Origin: Pirellulales bacterium
GTDB taxonomy: Bacteria > Planctomycetota > Planctomycetia > Pirellulales > JADZDJ01
NCBI GenBank assembly: GCA_035499655.1
Contig: DATJYL010000210.1
Coordinates: forward strand, 1 to 38,678
Direction of reading: 5' to 3'
Length of the DNA stretch: 38,678 nucleotides
In this document: piece after piece, positions 4,726-21,234 of the stretch
Numbering within the stretch: the first letter of the stretch is position 1
How the letters are laid out: every line of letters starts with the position of its first letter
The notes under the pieces: model-generated
Database searches by the model: none
Told to the model about the DNA's origin: nothing
The model's input: only the letters and a program-made list of their open reading frames with translations
Position numbers and translations under genes: made by a program

Positions 4726-5865
4726 ATGGACGGAGCCACGGTGGAACACGAAGTTTTCGCCATTTCGTTTCCTGCTGGCACGGGACGCAGCATGGCCCAA
4801 AATGTCTCCAAGCAGGCCCCGCCAAACAACCCCGAATTTATTGTCGGGCCGGAAAACCACCTGGCCGCGTCTGTCGTCGGCTGGTTGTGCAAGCGCGAAC
4901 GGCATTATAGCCCGCTGGTGTTGTGCGGGCCGTCGGGCGCAGGAAAATCGCACTTGGCGCATAGCCTGGTCCAATCGCGCAACGATGCGGTGTATACCCG
5001 CGGAGCTGATTTTGCCCGTGAATTGGCCACTGCCGTGGAAAAAGACGCGGCCTCGGATTTTCGCAACCGCTTCCGCGCTGCCGGCATGTTGGTGTTGGAC
5101 GACTTTCCGCAAATGCTGGGGCGTCCTGCGGCTTTGCAGGAATTTCAGCATACGCTGGATGCTTTGGAAGCCCGCGAGGCCTCGGTGATAATTACCGCTC
5201 GCCGGACGCCGCAAGAAATGGCGGATTTGCCCCCTCCGCTTCGCAGTCGCTTGAGCAGCGGATTGGTGGTAAAGATTTCGCCCCCCGGAATTGCCGCGCG
5301 ACAGCGAATTTTGGAGCGTTTTGCGGTAGCTCGCGGCATTGCATTATCCCCGGAGGCCGCAAAACTGTTGGCGGAGCAATTCAATGTAACCGCAACCGAG
5401 CTGCGCGGTCACCTTGCAAAAATAGAGATGGAAGCTCGTTCGAAGCGCGTCACAAATAAAGGGGGGGTCGTAAACGCCGACTCGTCGGACCGTGATCGTT
5501 TGAATGATCCTTTGACGATTGAATCGCCGGATATACGCCGATATCTCTCGCACCATCGTCTCCTGCTGCGCCCCAGCCTGGAGCAAGTTACGACAGCGGT
5601 GGCAAAGTTTTACGGTCTGAAGCCGGCGGCAATGAGCAGCCCTTCGCGGCGTCGACAAGTCGTTTTTGCTCGAGGAATGGCCATTTATCTGGGACGTACA
5701 CTCTGCGGCGCCAGCTTGAAGACCTTGGGCAAGCACTTTGGCGGTCGCGACCACACCACGGTGTTGCATAGCTTCCGTCAATTGCAAAGCCGCTTGTCTT
5801 CTGATTCCGAATTAAACAACGCGGTCGATCATTTACAGCAAGTGCTGACCAAACGTGCGTCATAA
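4726..5865 (+). CDS. dnaA: Chromosomal replication initiator DnaA-like protein lacking domain I
   Basis: AAA+ initiator that binds origin DNA and melts it in its ATP form. Visible features are the Walker A motif GPSGAGKSHL, Walker B MLVLDDFPQM, the box VII region LPPPLRSRLSSGLVVKI, and a complete domain IV with the DNA-binding signature LGKHFGGRDHTTVLHSF. The AAA+ part begins within about 40 residues of the start, so the usual N-terminal domain I (DnaB and regulator contacts) and most of the linker are missing; the product is about 380 residues against a usual 440-500. Start choice is uncertain: ATG 4726 is used, but GTG 4741 has a better-placed GGAG, and TTG 4690 and ATG 4792 are also possible. 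A run of G within the gene gives GGV near residue 250, just before the linker to domain IV. Its position next to dnaN, a DUF721 gene and gyrB supports the initiator role over a Hda-like regulator, which would also lack domain IV. Confidence 0.88.
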   Translation: MDGATVEHEVFAISFPAGTGRSMAQNVSKQAPPNNPEFIVGPENHLAASVVGWLCKRERHYSPLVLCGPSGAGKSHLAHSLVQSRNDAVYTRGADFARELATAVEKDAASDFRNRFRAAGMLVLDDFPQMLGRPAALQEFQHTLDALEAREASVIITARRTPQEMADLPPPLRSRLSSGLVVKISPPGIAARQRILERFAVARGIALSPEAAKLLAEQFNVTATELRGHLAKIEMEARSKRVTNKGGVVNADSSDRDRLNDPLTIESPDIRRYLSHHRLLLRPSLEQVTTAVAKFYGLKPAAMSSPSRRRQVVFARGMAIYLGRTLCGASLKTLGKHFGGRDHTTVLHSFRQLQSRLSSDSELNNAVDHLQQVLTKRAS

Positions 5866-6231
5866 TCTGATTTTGGTTTTGAACAATTGGGGATAATTGG
5901 TTGGATAGTTGTCGACGGTAAAGATGACATCGTGCGTCATCGACCTCCAAAACCTTCGCGATAAATTTTTGTTTAGAACCTTTGGTCGATACAACATTCG
6001 ACCAACACAAAATCTACATGCTTTCAACATCGTCGAGATGACGCCTGATTCGCGGTTTCCTTCGATCACCACAACCAACTGTCTTCCAATTGCACACGCG
6101 TATCAACACTCTCGTTTATCTACCTACTAGTTCTACTGATTGAAAAGAATCCTTAAACTGATAAAACACATGGTTCAACTCACTCCATAAAGTCGAATCC
6201 CTAGAAGTACAAAGTTACAGGCGGCACGAGT
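5866..6231. other. Candidate replication origin region between dnaA and dnaN
   Basis: This is a 366-bp gap without a credible gene and clearly richer in A and T than its neighbours. It holds the complement of TTATCCCCA at 5888-5896 (one mismatch to TTATCCACA) and TTATCTACC at 6116-6124 (two mismatches), plus AT-rich stretches such as gataaatttttgttt near 5960. In many bacteria oriC lies beside dnaA and dnaN, which is the reason for the call. The boxes are few and imperfect, so the assignment stays tentative. The dnaN promoter must also lie here. Confidence 0.4.
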
Positions 6232-7655: not shown

Positions 7656-10426
<2,771 letters not shown>

Positions 10427-10520
10427 TATTTCAGTTCCTTCTCGGAGAAAATCCTGATGGCAATTTGAGATAAGACATTCAATCTCACAGAAACACTCAA
10501 GTACAAATTCGATCAACCAC

Positions 10521-10550
10521 AGTGAACTGTGGCTTGCACGTAATCACCGC
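10521..10550 (+). repeat. Degenerate inverted CRISPR-repeat-like (anti-repeat-like) copy, left side
   Basis: The sequence agtgaactg…ggcttgc…aatcaccgc resembles the reverse complement of the CRISPR repeat (agtgtaaccg…ggcctgc…aatccgc) with a deletion of about 5 bp and scattered substitutions. It lies 11 bp before the first repeat. It could be a relic of an inverted array unit or of an anti-repeat. The similarity is partial and was judged by eye. Confidence 0.3.
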
Positions 10551-10561
10551 GCGATGTCAGC

Positions 10562-10662
10562 GTTGCGGATTGCTCGCAGGCCGGGATCGGTTACACTAAA
10601 AATATCGTGCTCCGCACTGCTGACGGGTTGCGGATTGCTCGCAGGCCGGGATCGGTTACACT
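10562..10662 (+). CRISPR. Minimal CRISPR array: two identical 36-bp repeats, one 29-bp spacer
   Basis: Two perfect copies of a 36-bp repeat (beginning GTTGCGG, ending TTACACT) lie at 10562-10597 and 10627-10662. They enclose a 29-bp spacer at 10598-10626. Repeat and spacer lengths are typical for type II. The + strand orientation is chosen because both tracrRNA anti-repeats near 16.5 and 17.0 kb are complementary to this strand and end with the complement of the GTTGCGG half, as required for crRNA:tracrRNA pairing. The array would be transcribed toward cas2, convergent with the cas genes. The 135 bp after gyrB (10427-10561) is the presumed leader. With only one spacer the array is either ancestral-minimal, decayed, or collapsed in assembly. 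Confidence 0.9.
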
Positions 10663-10691
10663 ACTCCGGCGCTAACCGGCTTTCCGCACAC

Positions 10692-10712
10692 GGCTTGCGA
10701 GCAATCCGCAAT
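10692..10712 (-). repeat. Inverted half-repeat downstream of the array
   Basis: These 21 bp are the reverse complement of the first 21 bp of the CRISPR repeat with two mismatches. They begin 29 bp after the second repeat, which is exactly one spacer length, and run into the cas2 stop codon at 10712-10714. Together with the second repeat they could form a stem of about 20 bp in a transcript of either strand. It may be a decayed inverted terminal repeat, an anti-repeat-like element, or a processing/termination hairpin for cas2 or the array. Confidence 0.6.
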
Positions 10713-11041
10713 CAAAAAAGTTCCAATTGGCATGGCGCTGGCTCGGGCGGTTTGCGTAGTTTTCCCCAAAAAACGCGCATTCGTTCAAACTGTTTGTCGG
10801 TAATCGTCAGCAGCCGCACTTCTCCGTCAGGCGGCACGTGTTTCTCTATGCGCTGCGCATGCACCACAGCGCTTTCCTCGCTGGCGCAATGCCGAGCATA
10901 TACCGAAAATTGCATCTTCGTAAAGCCGTCGCGCAGCAGCACCTTCCGAAATTGCGCGTAAGCCCGTCGGGCCTTCTTTGTGTCCACCGGCAAATCGAAC
11001 ATGGCCAAAACCCACATGCAGCGATATCCGCTAATGAACAC
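10712..11041 (-). CDS. cas2: CRISPR-associated endoribonuclease-fold protein Cas2
   Basis: Cas2 is the dimeric scaffold of the Cas1-Cas2 integrase that inserts new spacers. The 109-residue frame contains the ferredoxin-fold start WVLAMFDLPVDTKKARRAYAQFRKVLLRDGFTKMQFSVYARHC, with the conserved Asp of the first strand, and VRLLTITDKQFERM. The length is normal. The start may be the ATG at 11041 or the internal ATG at 11017 just before WVLAMF. It begins about 11 bp after the cas1 stop, so the two are surely one transcript. It is the last cas gene of the locus; the array lies about 50 bp beyond its stop in convergent orientation. Confidence 0.93.
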   Translation of the reverse strand: MFISGYRCMWVLAMFDLPVDTKKARRAYAQFRKVLLRDGFTKMQFSVYARHCASEESAVVHAQRIEKHVPPDGEVRLLTITDKQFERMRVFWGKLRKPPEPAPCQLELF

Positions 11042-16461: not shown

Positions 16462-16489
16462 TTGACTCCCCACCGATAGCGGTTATGAT
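16462..16489 (+). promoter_or_regulatory. Promoter of tracrRNA gene A
   Basis: TTGACT (16462-16467) and TATGAT (16484-16489) are separated by 16 bp. The predicted start is near 16496, right at the first base of the anti-repeat. The -35 lies only 37 bp from the cas9 start codon on the other strand, so the two divergent transcription units share this short region. Confidence 0.75.
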
Positions 16490-16495
16490 AGCACA

Positions 16496-16600
16496 AAGTG
16501 TAACTGATCTCAGCCTGCTGTTTTCCGCAACAAGTGTAAAACACAGGCACCGCCTTCGGGCGACCAACCGCAGCTCGCACAAACGACCTGCGGTTTTTTA
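16496..16600 (+). ncRNA. tracrRNA, copy A
   Basis: The RNA would be about 105 nt. Its first 36 nt (agtgtaactgatctc…ttttccgcaac) are a full-length anti-repeat: the 5' part matches the complement of the repeat 3' half with about three substitutions, and the 3' part TCCGCAAC pairs perfectly with the first 8 bases of the repeat, GTTGCGGA. The middle is mispaired, which would give the usual bulge. It is followed by a nexus-type hairpin, cgcc-ttcg-ggcg, at 16551-16562, and a terminator hairpin with a T run at 16567-16599. It has its own promoter. Of the two copies it has the better lower stem, so it is the more likely main tracrRNA. Confidence 0.88.
16567..16599 (+). terminator. Rho-independent terminator of tracrRNA A
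   Basis: accgcag (16567-16573) pairs with ctgcggt (16588-16594), and a run of six T ends at 16599. The hairpin also serves as the 3' hairpin of the tracrRNA. hicB starts 19 bp further on, so any read-through would produce a tracrRNA-hicB transcript. Confidence 0.8.
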
Positions 16601-16617: not shown

Positions 16618-16866
16618 ATGAGTGAAGCAGCAATTCGCCTCCATATCGAACCTTTAGATGCAGGCGGTTATGTGGCTACCAGCCCCGACGTTCCCGGTTT
16701 GGTTGCCGAAGGCCGCAGCATTGTAGAGGTGGCGGAAATCGCCCGTGATGTGGCGCGCAAAATTGCTGAAATGTGCCGCGAGAATGGTGATCCTTTGCCG
16801 CCGGCCCTCGCAACATTCGATGATACGAAACCGTTTGATCTGACAATTCCCGTGGGAGTCGGGTAA
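16618..16866 (+). CDS. hicB: HicB-family antitoxin
   Basis: An 82-residue protein of the HicB antitoxin family, with the partial RNase H-like fold: IRLHIEPLDAGGYVATSPDVPGLVAEGRSIVEVAEIARDVARKIAEMCRENGDPLPPAL. In intact modules HicB binds and inhibits the mRNA interferase HicA. Here it lies between the two tracrRNA genes in the same direction and starts directly after the terminator of copy A, with no clear promoter of its own. The stop codon overlaps the start of the truncated hicA by one base (taATG), the usual translational coupling. Because the toxin is broken it may be an orphan. HicB of this short form has no obvious DNA-binding tail, so autoregulation cannot be assumed. Confidence 0.85.
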   Translation: MSEAAIRLHIEPLDAGGYVATSPDVPGLVAEGRSIVEVAEIARDVARKIAEMCRENGDPLPPALATFDDTKPFDLTIPVGVG

Positions 16867-16985: not shown

Positions 16986-17097
16986 AGTGTAACTGATCTC
17001 GGCCTGCTGAGTCTTTTCGCAAACAAGAAGAAGAATTCGCAGGCAACGCTCTACGGAGCGACCAGCCGCAATGCCTAACCGCAGGGCGGCTTTTTTA
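16986..17097 (+). ncRNA. tracrRNA, copy B
   Basis: A second tracrRNA gene of about 112 nt. The anti-repeat agtgtaactgatctc…cctgctg matches the 3' half of the repeat slightly better than copy A, but its 3' part (ttttcgcaaac) pairs with GTTGCGGA only with a bulge. The nexus is cgctc-tacg-gagcg at 17047-17060. Compared with copy A (cgcc-ttcg-ggcg) both strands of this stem changed together, which is compensatory variation and argues that the RNA structure was kept by selection. The terminator hairpin is at 17064-17096. It could be a second guide scaffold, a regulator, or a diverging duplicate. Confidence 0.82.
17064..17096 (+). terminator. Rho-independent terminator of tracrRNA B
   Basis: agccgc (17064-17069) pairs with gcggct (17086-17091), followed by a T run ending at 17096. 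It corresponds in position to the terminator of copy A but has a different loop. Confidence 0.7.
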
Positions 17098-18063: not shown

Positions 18064-18717
18064 TCACTGGCCGGCGATTTTGGCGGCGCCCAATTTCTGC
18101 TGAATATCGGTCAATTCTTTGATGGCTTGCCGATGTACGTCGCTGGCGGCGCCGGATTGGCTCGCGGCGGATTGAAAGTAAAGCTTCGCCACGCCGAAGC
18201 GGTGTTGGGCCAATAATTGGCGGCCGCGCTCCAGATCGGCGGTGGCTTGTTGATCGCCGGCGGCCGCCTCCGCCGCTTGTTGGGCTTTCAAGGCGGCCAC
18301 GCTGGGCACGGGCGATTGACGCACGGCAAGCAATGATGCCGCGCTGCCGGTTTGCGGCGTCGGCGGGCCGATCAGCGCTTCTTCCATCACGTCAAAATCG
18401 TGAATTTGGACGCTGACGCTCACATTGCCGGCGCCAGTGCTGGAGCCGGTGGCGTTATTCGTGAACGGCCGGCTGGGCAGGCCCGGTATGCCGCGCTGGC
18501 TGTTGCCGGCAGCCGCGGCGTTGAAGCCGCCTAAAAATGCATCGCCCCCGTCAGGCGCCAGCACGGAAGTGTTGGTGGTGAAGTAATGGAATGCCGGCAA
18601 TTGGACGACGACGGGGGTTTGGGCCAGCGCCGCACTGGCGCAGCAGTGGGTGATCGCAAATCCCAGGATCATGCCCAATGCTGACCGACTGCGGCTTGCA
18701 ATAAAAAAGCACTTCAT
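18064..18717 (-). CDS. Exported protein of unknown function
   Basis: I recognise no named family. The 217-residue product starts with a signal peptide (ALGMILGFAITHCCASAALAQ) with a likely cleavage after ALA-Q. The middle is Gly/Ala/Asn-rich, with SVSVQIHDFDVMEEALIG. The C-terminal 80 residues are alpha-helical (AALKAQQAAEAAAGDQQATADLERGRQLLAQHRFGVAKLYFQSAA) and resemble a TPR-like helical pair. It probably acts in the periplasm or cell envelope. It lies convergent to the thioredoxin-like gene and downstream of the kinase gene on the same strand, with a 189-bp gap. Confidence 0.65.
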   Translation of the reverse strand: MKCFFIASRSRSALGMILGFAITHCCASAALAQTPVVVQLPAFHYFTTNTSVLAPDGGDAFLGGFNAAAAGNSQRGIPGLPSRPFTNNATGSSTGAGNVSVSVQIHDFDVMEEALIGPPTPQTGSAASLLAVRQSPVPSVAALKAQQAAEAAAGDQQATADLERGRQLLAQHRFGVAKLYFQSAASQSGAASDVHRQAIKELTDIQQKLGAAKIAGQ

Positions 18718-18906: not shown

Positions 18907-21234
18907 CTAGCGTGTGCCTGTCCAGAGCGAATCGACGGTGTCGGTGCTGACGCTGGTGGCATCGCGGCTGGGGTCGATGGCTACTTCCAAAGCAGCCAGA
19001 TCGGTGCGAATCAACTGCAAGATATAATAGGACAACAACGTCACTCCCAAGCCGATGATGGCCAGTGCCCCCATCCAAATTTTCTGTGAATCTTCCTTTA
19101 ATCCGGAAACTGCCAGCAAACCAACGGCGCAAAAGGGGGCGGCAAGAGTCAAATATAAGCCCCACCCACAACGGCGTCCGACGCGCTCCAAATGGTCCAC
19201 TTCGCTCGGATTGGTTTGTTCGGGCCGCACCAGCACGGGGTAAAAGGCTCGGACGAACATGAAGGTGAGCAGATAGAACGTGAGCGTGGAGGAAATCCAA
19301 CCGCAAACGATTTGTGAGGCCAAAAAATTTCGATATTGATCGAAGCCAATGCCTTCGATGTCGCCGAAGTGTAAATGCTGCCAGGCGGGAAATACGATGC
19401 CGGAAATCACCCACAGCGCCATTCCGACCCAGGCCGCCGAATCGCCCACCCACAAGGCCCGGCGGCGTAAGCGACTATGTTCTTCCGGCGGAATTTGTTT
19501 TCCAGAACCGACGCGGCCCACGGCAATCAGCACCGGCCAGGCAACATAAAAGACCAGCAGCACGGCAATCGGGAACGAAACAGCGTTGACCACGGGCACT
19601 TCGACATCCCAAAAGAAATCGTGAATGGCTGTGTTCGAGGGGGAGTCTGGGAGCGGAATGAATTCGATGGAATTGAACCGCAGATTCAGCCCGCTGAAAA
19701 TCACGCTGGGCATTAGCCCGACGCACACGAAAAACCAAAACGGCCAGCGGCGCAAGCGTTGGCGGAGCGAGCCGGGACTGGGACGCAACAGTCGTTGCAC
19801 GCGGGGCTTGAGGCACAGTTCCAATTGACGCTGCAGAAGGCCGGCCGAGGCGGGCCGATCTTTCACATTCGGTGATAGACAAGCGGTGAGGACCGATTGC
19901 AGGCCGGGGGGCAGATCGGGGGGCAACGTGGCCAGGGTGACGGCGGTAAGGCCGGCCTGGCGGCGCTGGGTTAAGCGGGCGAGGAGTTTGGGCGTGTCGT
20001 TGATGCAATCTTCCGGACGATCGTCGACAAATGGCCGGCTGCCGGTCAGCATTTCCCACAACACGACGCCGAGCGAATAGACGTCGCTGCGACCGTCGAG
20101 TTCATCGGGCTTGCGATCATGGTCGGGGTTGTAGGCTTCGATTTGCTCCGGCGACATGTAAGCGGGCGAACCACCGAAGAAAGCCGCGGCCGTGGCCCCT
20201 TCCAATTTTGAGCCGTAGCTGACGTTGAAATCGACCAGCTTGGGCGCGCCGTCGGCGGCCAGCAGCACGTTGGCCGGCTTCACATCGCGGTGCAGCACGC
20301 CGCGTTGATGGGCGTACTCCAGCGCCGCGGCCAACCGCGCCCCGAGCCAACACACGGCCTCCGGCCAGGTCATGGCGTTCATGCGCCGCCGCGCGCCGGA
20401 CTCGCTGGGGGGCGATTCGCCATGCCGCTCCAACGCTTGATCGATCGATTGCACCACCGTTTTGCCGCTGCGCAAGGCGGGCGCTTGTTGCCGGGCCAAT
20501 TCCAGCACGTCTTGCAAGGTGCCGCCGGGAATGTGCTGCATGTACATCAGTTGCATGCGCTTATCAGGCAGCAAGCGCTGATCGTACACGCGGACAATGT
20601 GCGGATGATCCAGTTGTGCCAGTGTTTGCGGTTCCGCCCCTTTGTTGCGGGAAATTTTGAGCGCCACCAGTCGCTGCATGGAGCGTTGCCGAGCCAGAAA
20701 CACCAGGCCGAACGAGCCCTTTCCCAAGCGGACCAGCAAATCGAAATCGTCAATTTGTTGGCCAACTTCAAAATCAGGATCGCGCGCCCCGGTCAGCAGC
20801 GTGGTGCTGGCGGTCCGATTTGGGTCGATGGCCAGCATGCGTTTCAACCGGTTGGCTTGCCGCGGGAAGCGGGTGTAATATTCGTCAGACCGGGGTGGAT
20901 CGGCGGTTAGTCGCCGAACGCGATATTCTTCGCAAATCAATTCGCAGGGAATTTCGCCGGCGGAGGCCAGTTCGGGAAATTCCTCGACGTATTCTTCCAC
21001 TTGCTTGGGCAGCTCGTGATGTTGCCAGCGATATTCCAGATCGATTTTGATCAATTCGATCAGCGTTAGGCTGCGCAGGGCCGGCGGTTCGGCGGGGAGG
21101 AATTGAGATAAATCGGGGGGCAAATCGTCCCCTTGCCAGGCGGCCAACAGCGCGTCGGCCCGTTCCACCAGGGCGTTCAAAGCCACGGTGGCGGGTTCCG
21201 CGGGCGGCAAGCTGGGACGCGAGCTTTCGATCAT
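18907..21234 (-). CDS. Membrane-bound Ser/Thr protein kinase with C-terminal six-helix domain
   Basis: A 775-residue Hanks-type kinase. The kinase domain shows the glycine loop RLGKGSFGLVFLA (171-176), the lysine VALKISR (Lys193), the catalytic loop LHRDVKPANVLL (315-317), the metal-binding motif VDFNVS (DFN at 335-337 in place of DFG), and the activation segment GGSPAYMSPEQ. A 40-residue insert lies before the catalytic loop. After residue 500 come six hydrophobic helices, beginning with WPFWFFVCVGLMPSVIFSGLNL and ending with IWMGALAIIGLGVTLLSYYI, so the kinase is anchored with the catalytic domain in the cytoplasm. The about 150-residue N-terminal region (LIELIKIDLEYRWQHHELPKQVEEYVEEFP) is common in planctomycete kinases. 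Substrates are unknown. Confidence 0.9.
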   Translation of the reverse strand: MIESSRPSLPPAEPATVALNALVERADALLAAWQGDDLPPDLSQFLPAEPPALRSLTLIELIKIDLEYRWQHHELPKQVEEYVEEFPELASAGEIPCELICEEYRVRRLTADPPRSDEYYTRFPRQANRLKRMLAIDPNRTASTTLLTGARDPDFEVGQQIDDFDLLVRLGKGSFGLVFLARQRSMQRLVALKISRNKGAEPQTLAQLDHPHIVRVYDQRLLPDKRMQLMYMQHIPGGTLQDVLELARQQAPALRSGKTVVQSIDQALERHGESPPSESGARRRMNAMTWPEAVCWLGARLAAALEYAHQRGVLHRDVKPANVLLAADGAPKLVDFNVSYGSKLEGATAAAFFGGSPAYMSPEQIEAYNPDHDRKPDELDGRSDVYSLGVVLWEMLTGSRPFVDDRPEDCINDTPKLLARLTQRRQAGLTAVTLATLPPDLPPGLQSVLTACLSPNVKDRPASAGLLQRQLELCLKPRVQRLLRPSPGSLRQRLRRWPFWFFVCVGLMPSVIFSGLNLRFNSIEFIPLPDSPSNTAIHDFFWDVEVPVVNAVSFPIAVLLVFYVAWPVLIAVGRVGSGKQIPPEEHSRLRRRALWVGDSAAWVGMALWVISGIVFPAWQHLHFGDIEGIGFDQYRNFLASQIVCGWISSTLTFYLLTFMFVRAFYPVLVRPEQTNPSEVDHLERVGRRCGWGLYLTLAAPFCAVGLLAVSGLKEDSQKIWMGALAIIGLGVTLLSYYILQLIRTDLAALEVAIDPSRDATSVSTDTVDSLWTGTR

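Follow-up and report, generated by a model that had tools for sequence, protein, structure and literature searches.

A II-C-like CRISPR-Cas9 locus with a one-spacer array, a leader predicted to compete with the tracrRNA for the last repeat, and two tracrRNA-like genes

Results

The CRISPR locus described here is II-C-like and has a minimal array, and the sequence of its leader is almost fully complementary to that half of the last repeat which binds the tracrRNA. In the model which we prefer, and to which a probability of about 0.55 is assigned, this complementarity would weaken or silence the only crRNA of the system. The window, i.e. the whole stretch of 38,678 nucleotides that was analysed, corresponds to contig C210. 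The genome comprises 4.54 Mb in 244 contigs, its completeness is 97%, and its named relatives are mostly Planctomycetota. The features of the array and of its surroundings are the following (the Cas9 classes are defined below).

7739-10426, + strand: gyrB
10562-10597, + strand: CRISPR repeat 1, 36 nt (GTTGCGG...TTACACT), orientation from the tracrRNA anti-repeats and the relatives
10598-10626, + strand: the sole spacer, 29 nt
10627-10662, + strand: CRISPR repeat 2, the final one, adjoining the leader; would form the 5' arm of the hairpin
10663-10711, + strand: leader, 49 nt, from the last repeat to the cas2 stop
10684-10711, + strand: inverted half-repeat, 28 nt, 86% identity, outer 20 nt 19/20; 3' arm of the predicted leader-repeat hairpin
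10712-11041, - strand: cas2, 109 aa, TIGR01573
11053-12060, - strand: cas1, 335 aa, type II model TIGR03639
12217-16473, - strand: cas9, 1418 aa, BIG class

The RuvC and HNH domains were both found in Cas9 (matches to RuvC_III, HNH_4 and HNH), and the protein scored 347 bits with TIGR01865, the cut-off being 100. There is no gene between cas2 and the array, and neither Csn2 nor Cas4 was detected at 18064-18717 and 18907-21234, the genes beyond 17.1 kb being typed in part.

The original prediction had described two perfect 36-bp repeats with one 29-bp spacer, and this was confirmed. Since the spacer and the leader both start with A, the identity of the repeats even extends to 37 bases. The 21-bp inverted half-repeat, said to run into the cas2 stop, was found as well: positions 10692-10712 differ from the inverted first 21 bases of the repeat by 2 mismatches, and the copy adjoins the stop codon (the complement of 10712-10714). 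When the alignment was kept in register, the half-repeat comprised the 28 nt listed above. Its local alignment score was 40, and the highest score reached by 2000 shuffled versions of the flank was 30. No further copy of the first 21 bases of the repeat was found in the genome at up to 3 mismatches. In case of the weaker inverted copy reported at 10521-10550, the score was only 17, which was equalled by 16% of the shuffles (P 0.16). This upstream copy is a chance match, and the idea of an array framed by a pair of inverted copies had to be abandoned with it. The gap of exactly one spacer length (29 bp) before the downstream copy is also a coincidence, being the 49-nt leader minus the 20-nt arm. 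With up to 3 mismatches allowed, the spacer matched nothing but itself in its own genome; viral contigs, searched for exact matches, and phage records gave no match either.

The relatives of Cas2 were collected, which resulted in 84 loci including the window, and the leader could be parsed in 75 of them. A first scan of the genome contigs with Cas9 had found no relative, and a search for the same locus in genomes of the same family covered 3 genomes, cas2 being present in G000 and G002 only. In the 75 parsed loci 47-52 nt separated the cas2 stop from the first repeat, a range which is narrow partly by construction, as the parser took repeat ends only at 80-92 nt from the stop (a gap of approx. 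44-56 nt). A wider search revealed one true exception, L105 with 125 nt, which had been mis-parsed and was carried through the later counts, and found no repeat for L070 and L109. The 9 loci left out of the leader counts had contig ends, N or a repeat end that was not recognised; L073, L077, L090 and L129 among them showed ordinary gaps of 50, 51, 50 and 48 nt, respectively, in the wider search.

In the 27 uncut arrays with at least five repeats, the cas2-side repeat was mutated in none and the far repeat in 12. By this count the array is youngest next to cas2, and the stretch found there is the leader. The same repeat mutations in the relatives served as a proxy for spacer uptake at the last, cas2-side repeat. 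The assignment agrees with the II-C literature, as PMC12080349 and PMC13187072 describe II-C systems with a promoter of its own in each repeat and spacer entry at the last repeat. By its position, the inverted arm makes up the outer 20 nt of the cas2-side leader, the length of which is normal.

The match between this leader and its repeat is exceptional. Among the 75 loci the inverted score of the leader against its own repeat was 40 in the window and 23 in the next locus; scores of P<0.05 were obtained in 10 loci, the window included. Positions 1-20 of the window leader match positions 2-21 of the repeat at 19 of 20 sites, and the other 74 leaders match their own repeats at 11 of 20 positions at most. 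None of the close relatives has the same arm. The nearest leader, that of L049 in the sister-genus genome G002, matches the repeat of the window at 11 of 20 positions; the arms of the window and of L049 differ at 8 sites, and at all 8 of them it is the window that matches the repeat. The sequence of the arm, its uniqueness and its place in the leader are direct observations, and so are the two tracrRNA-like genes described below.

When the window was excluded, own leader-repeat pairs still exceeded swapped pairs (permutation z 5.1 for the RNA duplex energy and 3.8 for the inverted score), but the direct and complement controls were also raised (z 2.9 and 2.6 for all loci, 1.7 and 2.9 for the CGCAAC type). 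With composition controlled, the pairing of leaders with their own repeats was small (mean z -0.38 ± 0.12, p<0.05 in 6/74). A family-wide leader-repeat hairpin is not claimed, the pairing being weak and the controls raised too. Palindromes internal to the leader reached p<0.05 in 8/75 loci, and internal leader structure did not appear as a trend of the group (mean z -0.26 ± 0.20, array strand). The leaders of L107, L084, L122, L086, L121 and L102 carry long internal palindromes, which are unrelated to each other and differ by lineage.

On the array strand the region 10598-10730 was computed to fold into one long hairpin of the last repeat and the leader (-60.1 kcal/mol, z -5.6), and none of 200 shuffles was as stable. 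The suggestion that the inverted partner could fold the array transcript into a long hairpin was therefore borne out as a prediction. The cas strand also folds well (-54.4 kcal/mol, z -3.9). The duplex energy computed for the whole repeat was -51.6 with the leader, and -53.2 and -56.2 with the two tracrRNAs described below; when only nucleotides 1-24 of the repeat were taken, the energy was -43.4 with the leader, and -31.1 and -34.1 with the tracrRNAs.

The competition was computed by cofolding the spacer-repeat-leader RNA with the tracrRNA in the window and in 62 relatives, the 12 of the 74 without a usable anti-repeat being left out. In the minimum free energy structure of the window, nucleotides 1-24 of the repeat paired with the leader at all 24 positions, whichever tracrRNA was added, and they were leader-paired in none of the 62 relatives. 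The cis-minus-trans sum of the window was -0.8 kcal/mol with tracr2 and +1.7 kcal/mol with tracr1, while in the relatives trans pairing was favoured by 25.9 ± 7.8 kcal/mol, with a minimum of 11.7. The leader hairpin is predicted to be able to displace the tracrRNA from repeat 2. In the sum-of-parts comparison the cis and trans energies of the window are almost tied, although the minimum free energy cofold picks the cis form; since they are nearly tied, the tracrRNA could still win in time. A transcript ending before the leader could be another way out of the predicted sequestration. Neither a promoter nor a terminator was found at 10400-10760. The putative repeat-internal promoters are based on the 3' TACACT, conserved in 54/75 repeats, and on the literature, since the scan for sigma-70-like promoters gave no hit within the array.

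A search for anti-repeats disclosed two tracrRNA-like genes, which are encoded on the + strand ahead of cas9, approx. 6 kb from the array. They and their neighbours are the following.

16462-16489, + strand: promoter-like TTGACT-16-TATGAT, before tracr1
16497-16600, + strand: tracr1, anti-repeat 16497-16531, tail of the BIG-associated class
16618-16866, + strand: HicB-like antitoxin ORF, 82 aa
16866-16940, + strand: hicA remnant, 24 codons, the remainder missing as compared with L049
16951-16979, + strand: promoter-like TTGACA-17-TATGAT, before tracr2
16986-17096, + strand: tracr2, anti-repeat 16986-17022, tail of the SMALL-associated class; an orphan in this locus

At the sequence level both genes have an anti-repeat, a strong promoter-like element, a structured tail and a terminator. 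The terminator scan matched only the 3' end of tracr2 (17072-17088, + strand); that of tracr1, a stem with a T-run, was read from the predicted fold. Since Rfam gave no match in the window at the gathering thresholds, neither gene is covered by a listed Rfam family.

BIG and SMALL denote the Cas9 proteins that are closer to the 1418-aa Cas9 of the window or to the 1054-aa Cas9 of G002, respectively. The tails were classified in the 41 cases only which scored at least 40 against either window tail. Tail A occurred with BIG Cas9 in 12 cases and with SMALL Cas9 in none, tail B with SMALL Cas9 in 27 cases and with BIG Cas9 in 2, both near ties. By this comparison tracr1 (tail A) fits the resident BIG Cas9, and tracr2 (tail B) fits the smaller Cas9 class, which is absent from the genome: one Cas9 only scored above the family cut-off there, and no second one was found.

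The tracr2 stretch together with the HicB-like gene is syntenic to L049, where the SMALL Cas9 is accompanied by a tracrRNA-B, hicB and an intact hicA (PF07927, E 1e-18), and the gene order of this L049 stretch is also seen in L059 and L061. The truncation of hicA in the window lies just ahead of tracr2; the HicB-like gene is intact, and the HicA of L049 is full-length. The Cas1 tree had 52 rows (the 51 of the 75 loci with a Cas1 hit, and the window), and the Cas9 tree omitted 3 of those 51 loci (L053, L101 and L096), counting relatives only. The Cas1 of the window was sister to that of L049 (support 100/100, 84% identity), while its Cas9 fell inside the BIG clade; BIG and SMALL each formed one clade in the Cas9 tree. 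On the Cas1 tree the Cas9 class changed 15 times, as compared with a mean of 15.5 for shuffled labels (243 of 500 shuffles were as low), and at least 8 changes were forced by well-supported branches. In these mostly planctomycete systems the Cas9 class is unrelated to the Cas1 phylogeny.

Cas9 replacement is usually inferred from tree conflict. The tail classes, the synteny with L049 and the conflict of the Cas1 and Cas9 trees together point to a swap of Cas9 and tracrRNA: most simply, a cassette of the BIG cas9 and tracr1 would have replaced a SMALL cas9, and tracr2 and the broken hicA would have been left behind. L076, a Ca. Hydrogenedentota MAG, has a BIG Cas9 and two tracrRNA-like genes, one of them with tail A. 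The other shares 93% identity over 42 nt with the sequence that immediately precedes the SMALL cas9 in L097, which is the Cas1 sister of L076 (100/99). The tracrRNA-like sites of L076 lie at 5364-5402 and 5544-5577 on the array strand, and the L097 counterpart at 6041-6080. Judged from these matches, L076 is a second, independent case of a leftover tracrRNA after Cas9 replacement. With two loci that appear to keep the tracrRNA of a lost Cas9, such a replacement would be readable from the scars in single loci. Chylinski 2014 and Faure 2019 are reportedly relevant to the evolution of type II systems and tracrRNAs.

Discussion

According to the preferred model, an RNA would start inside repeat 1, as is inferred from the II-C literature, and would read through the spacer, repeat 2 and, as we infer, the leader. 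The transcript would fold back and the leader would take the place of the tracrRNA on repeat 2. Since the array has a single spacer, which is served by repeat 2 alone, the predicted hairpin would sequester the only crRNA and would weaken or silence it in the cell. The insertion of a new spacer would move repeat 2 off the leader, and the silencing would be lifted. Most likely, a leader that was weakly palindromic was homogenised in place, from a template, and so gave rise to the arm. Should the prediction for the hairpin hold, the locus would be a natural example of a CRISPR array that shuts off its latest guide, and would offer a clean test of the competition between leader, repeat and tracrRNA. 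As a speculation, the silencing of the newest crRNA would leave little to gain from uptake, and the array may stay short.

A serious rival of this model is a neutral one, in which a template-switch (quasi-palindrome) mutation produced a palindrome of no effect, either as the tracrRNA wins or as the locus is hardly expressed. We give it an appreciable, though minority, chance. Template switching is described as a source of hairpins in PMC8794818, all 8 arm changes relative to L049 go toward the repeat, and the sporadic, unrelated long palindromes in other leaders of the family, those of the six loci named above being the top ones, are of the kind to be expected. However, the changes relative to L049 may have run in either direction, and neutrality alone leaves the extreme predicted competition with the tracrRNA unexplained.

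It is rather unlikely that the assembly collapsed an array which has more repeats in the cell, an explanation which bears on the one-spacer claim only. The fragmentation of the genome into 244 contigs would allow it, and 37 of the 75 arrays reach or approach a contig end, but this contig runs through into gyrB and no extra repeat copies were found on any contig. Furthermore, arrays of one repeat make up 7 of the 38 uncut arrays; of the others one has two repeats (the window), 3 have three to five and 27 have more. Since one-repeat arrays recur among the uncut arrays, small arrays are real or commonly produced. In L056/L050, L042, L052, L055, L071, L086, L115 and L133, cas2 and the leader are followed by a single repeat with no spacer.

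A regulatory hairpin under selection, locking the newest crRNA as a II-C counterpart of the leader-repeat hairpins of types II-A and VI, is unlikely. The strength of the hairpin would suit such a lock, and so would the precedents in II-A and VI (PMC12080349, PMC13187072) and the slight tendency, across the family, of leaders to pair better with their own repeat than with a swapped one. However, hairpins of comparable strength occur in none of the 74 other parsed leaders, and the raised controls show that composition or kinship accounts for part of the family signal. Moreover, the II-A and VI hairpins block a useless extra repeat, while here a useful one would be blocked. A slightly less probable form of the idea is a cis-acting lock in which the anti-repeat built into a II-C-like leader denies the newest, here the only, crRNA access to tracrRNA and Cas9 as long as no further spacer is added; this would be the mirror image of the II-A hairpin and may have arisen when a Cas9-tracrRNA cassette was replaced on an old cas1-cas2-array chassis.

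Insulation of the convergent cas and array transcripts by the hairpin, through termination or 3'-end stability, seems improbable. The convergent layout, the stable fold of the cas strand and the internal leader palindromes of some relatives are in line with it, but no T-run terminator was found at the hairpin and the leaders as a group are unstructured. The order and strand of the parts would also fit another tracrRNA, which would be the third, or a single-guide RNA of natural origin (spacer, repeat, loop, anti-repeat and tail in one transcript). Both are most improbable, as no promoter or terminator was found around the arm at 10684-10711, the sequence after it is cas2 antisense conserved as protein and no tracrRNA tail, and two tracrRNA-like genes lie elsewhere. 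Thus the earlier suggestion of a natural anti-repeat holds in part: the arm is predicted to rival the anti-repeat of the tracrRNA in cis, but it is no tracrRNA. Decay or inversion of an array unit, which had been offered to explain the arm, was rejected on leader length and array polarity: the arm looks like a reversed repeat about one spacer length off, but it sits within a normal-length leader on the side where repeats are not mutated.

The preferred model can be compared with several known systems. In II-A a leader-repeat hairpin blocks an extraneous crRNA (Liao et al. 2022, as described in PMC12080349 and PMC13187072). There too, the leader pairs with the adjoining repeat and would mask its tracrRNA-binding part; however, in II-A it is the first, guide-less repeat, and in the window it is the last repeat, that of the only spacer, with no guide-less extra repeat involved. 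In type VI-B the leader RNA and the adjoining repeat likewise form an inhibitory stem, but the effector is Cas13, the first repeat is blocked, and the stem is experimental there and predicted here (PMC13187072). The II-C survey in PMC12080349 reportedly found no leader-repeat hairpin; it examined the upstream side of the arrays, whereas the hairpin of the window belongs to the cas2-side leader.

The II-C systems with reversed arrays described in PMC12080349 share with the window the order cas9-cas1-cas2, an array transcribed toward cas2, uptake at the last repeat and a tracrRNA. The window differs by its large 1418-aa Cas9, by two tracrRNA-like genes of two classes with a HicB-like gene and a hicA remnant between them, and by the palindromic leader-repeat junction. 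According to PMC3936727, a Cas9 accepts no dual-RNA other than that of closely related systems, and these exchangeability groups fit a joint cas9-tracrRNA cassette; the window would add a natural replacement on a fixed cas1-cas2 chassis, with the tracrRNA of the replaced Cas9 still in place. Among open-licence PMC papers, judged mostly by title and the start of the abstract, we found none that describes a II-C hairpin in which the last repeat pairs with the leader on the cas2 side, nor one on an orphan tracrRNA left by Cas9 replacement.

Two minor observations concern the neighbourhood of these loci. The CRISPR locus adjoins gyrB, and by DNA matches this is also the case in G010 (L056, 10455-11367) and G006 (L042, 4426-5246), the neighbourhood common to the three being near dnaA-dnaN-gyrB. 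In L049 (5634-5669) and L061 (5509-5543) a solitary CRISPR repeat lies between cas9 and the tracrRNA, upstream of the intact hicB-hicA; it is placed as if it were the promoter of the toxin-antitoxin pair, which may be compared with Cas-regulated toxin-antitoxins.
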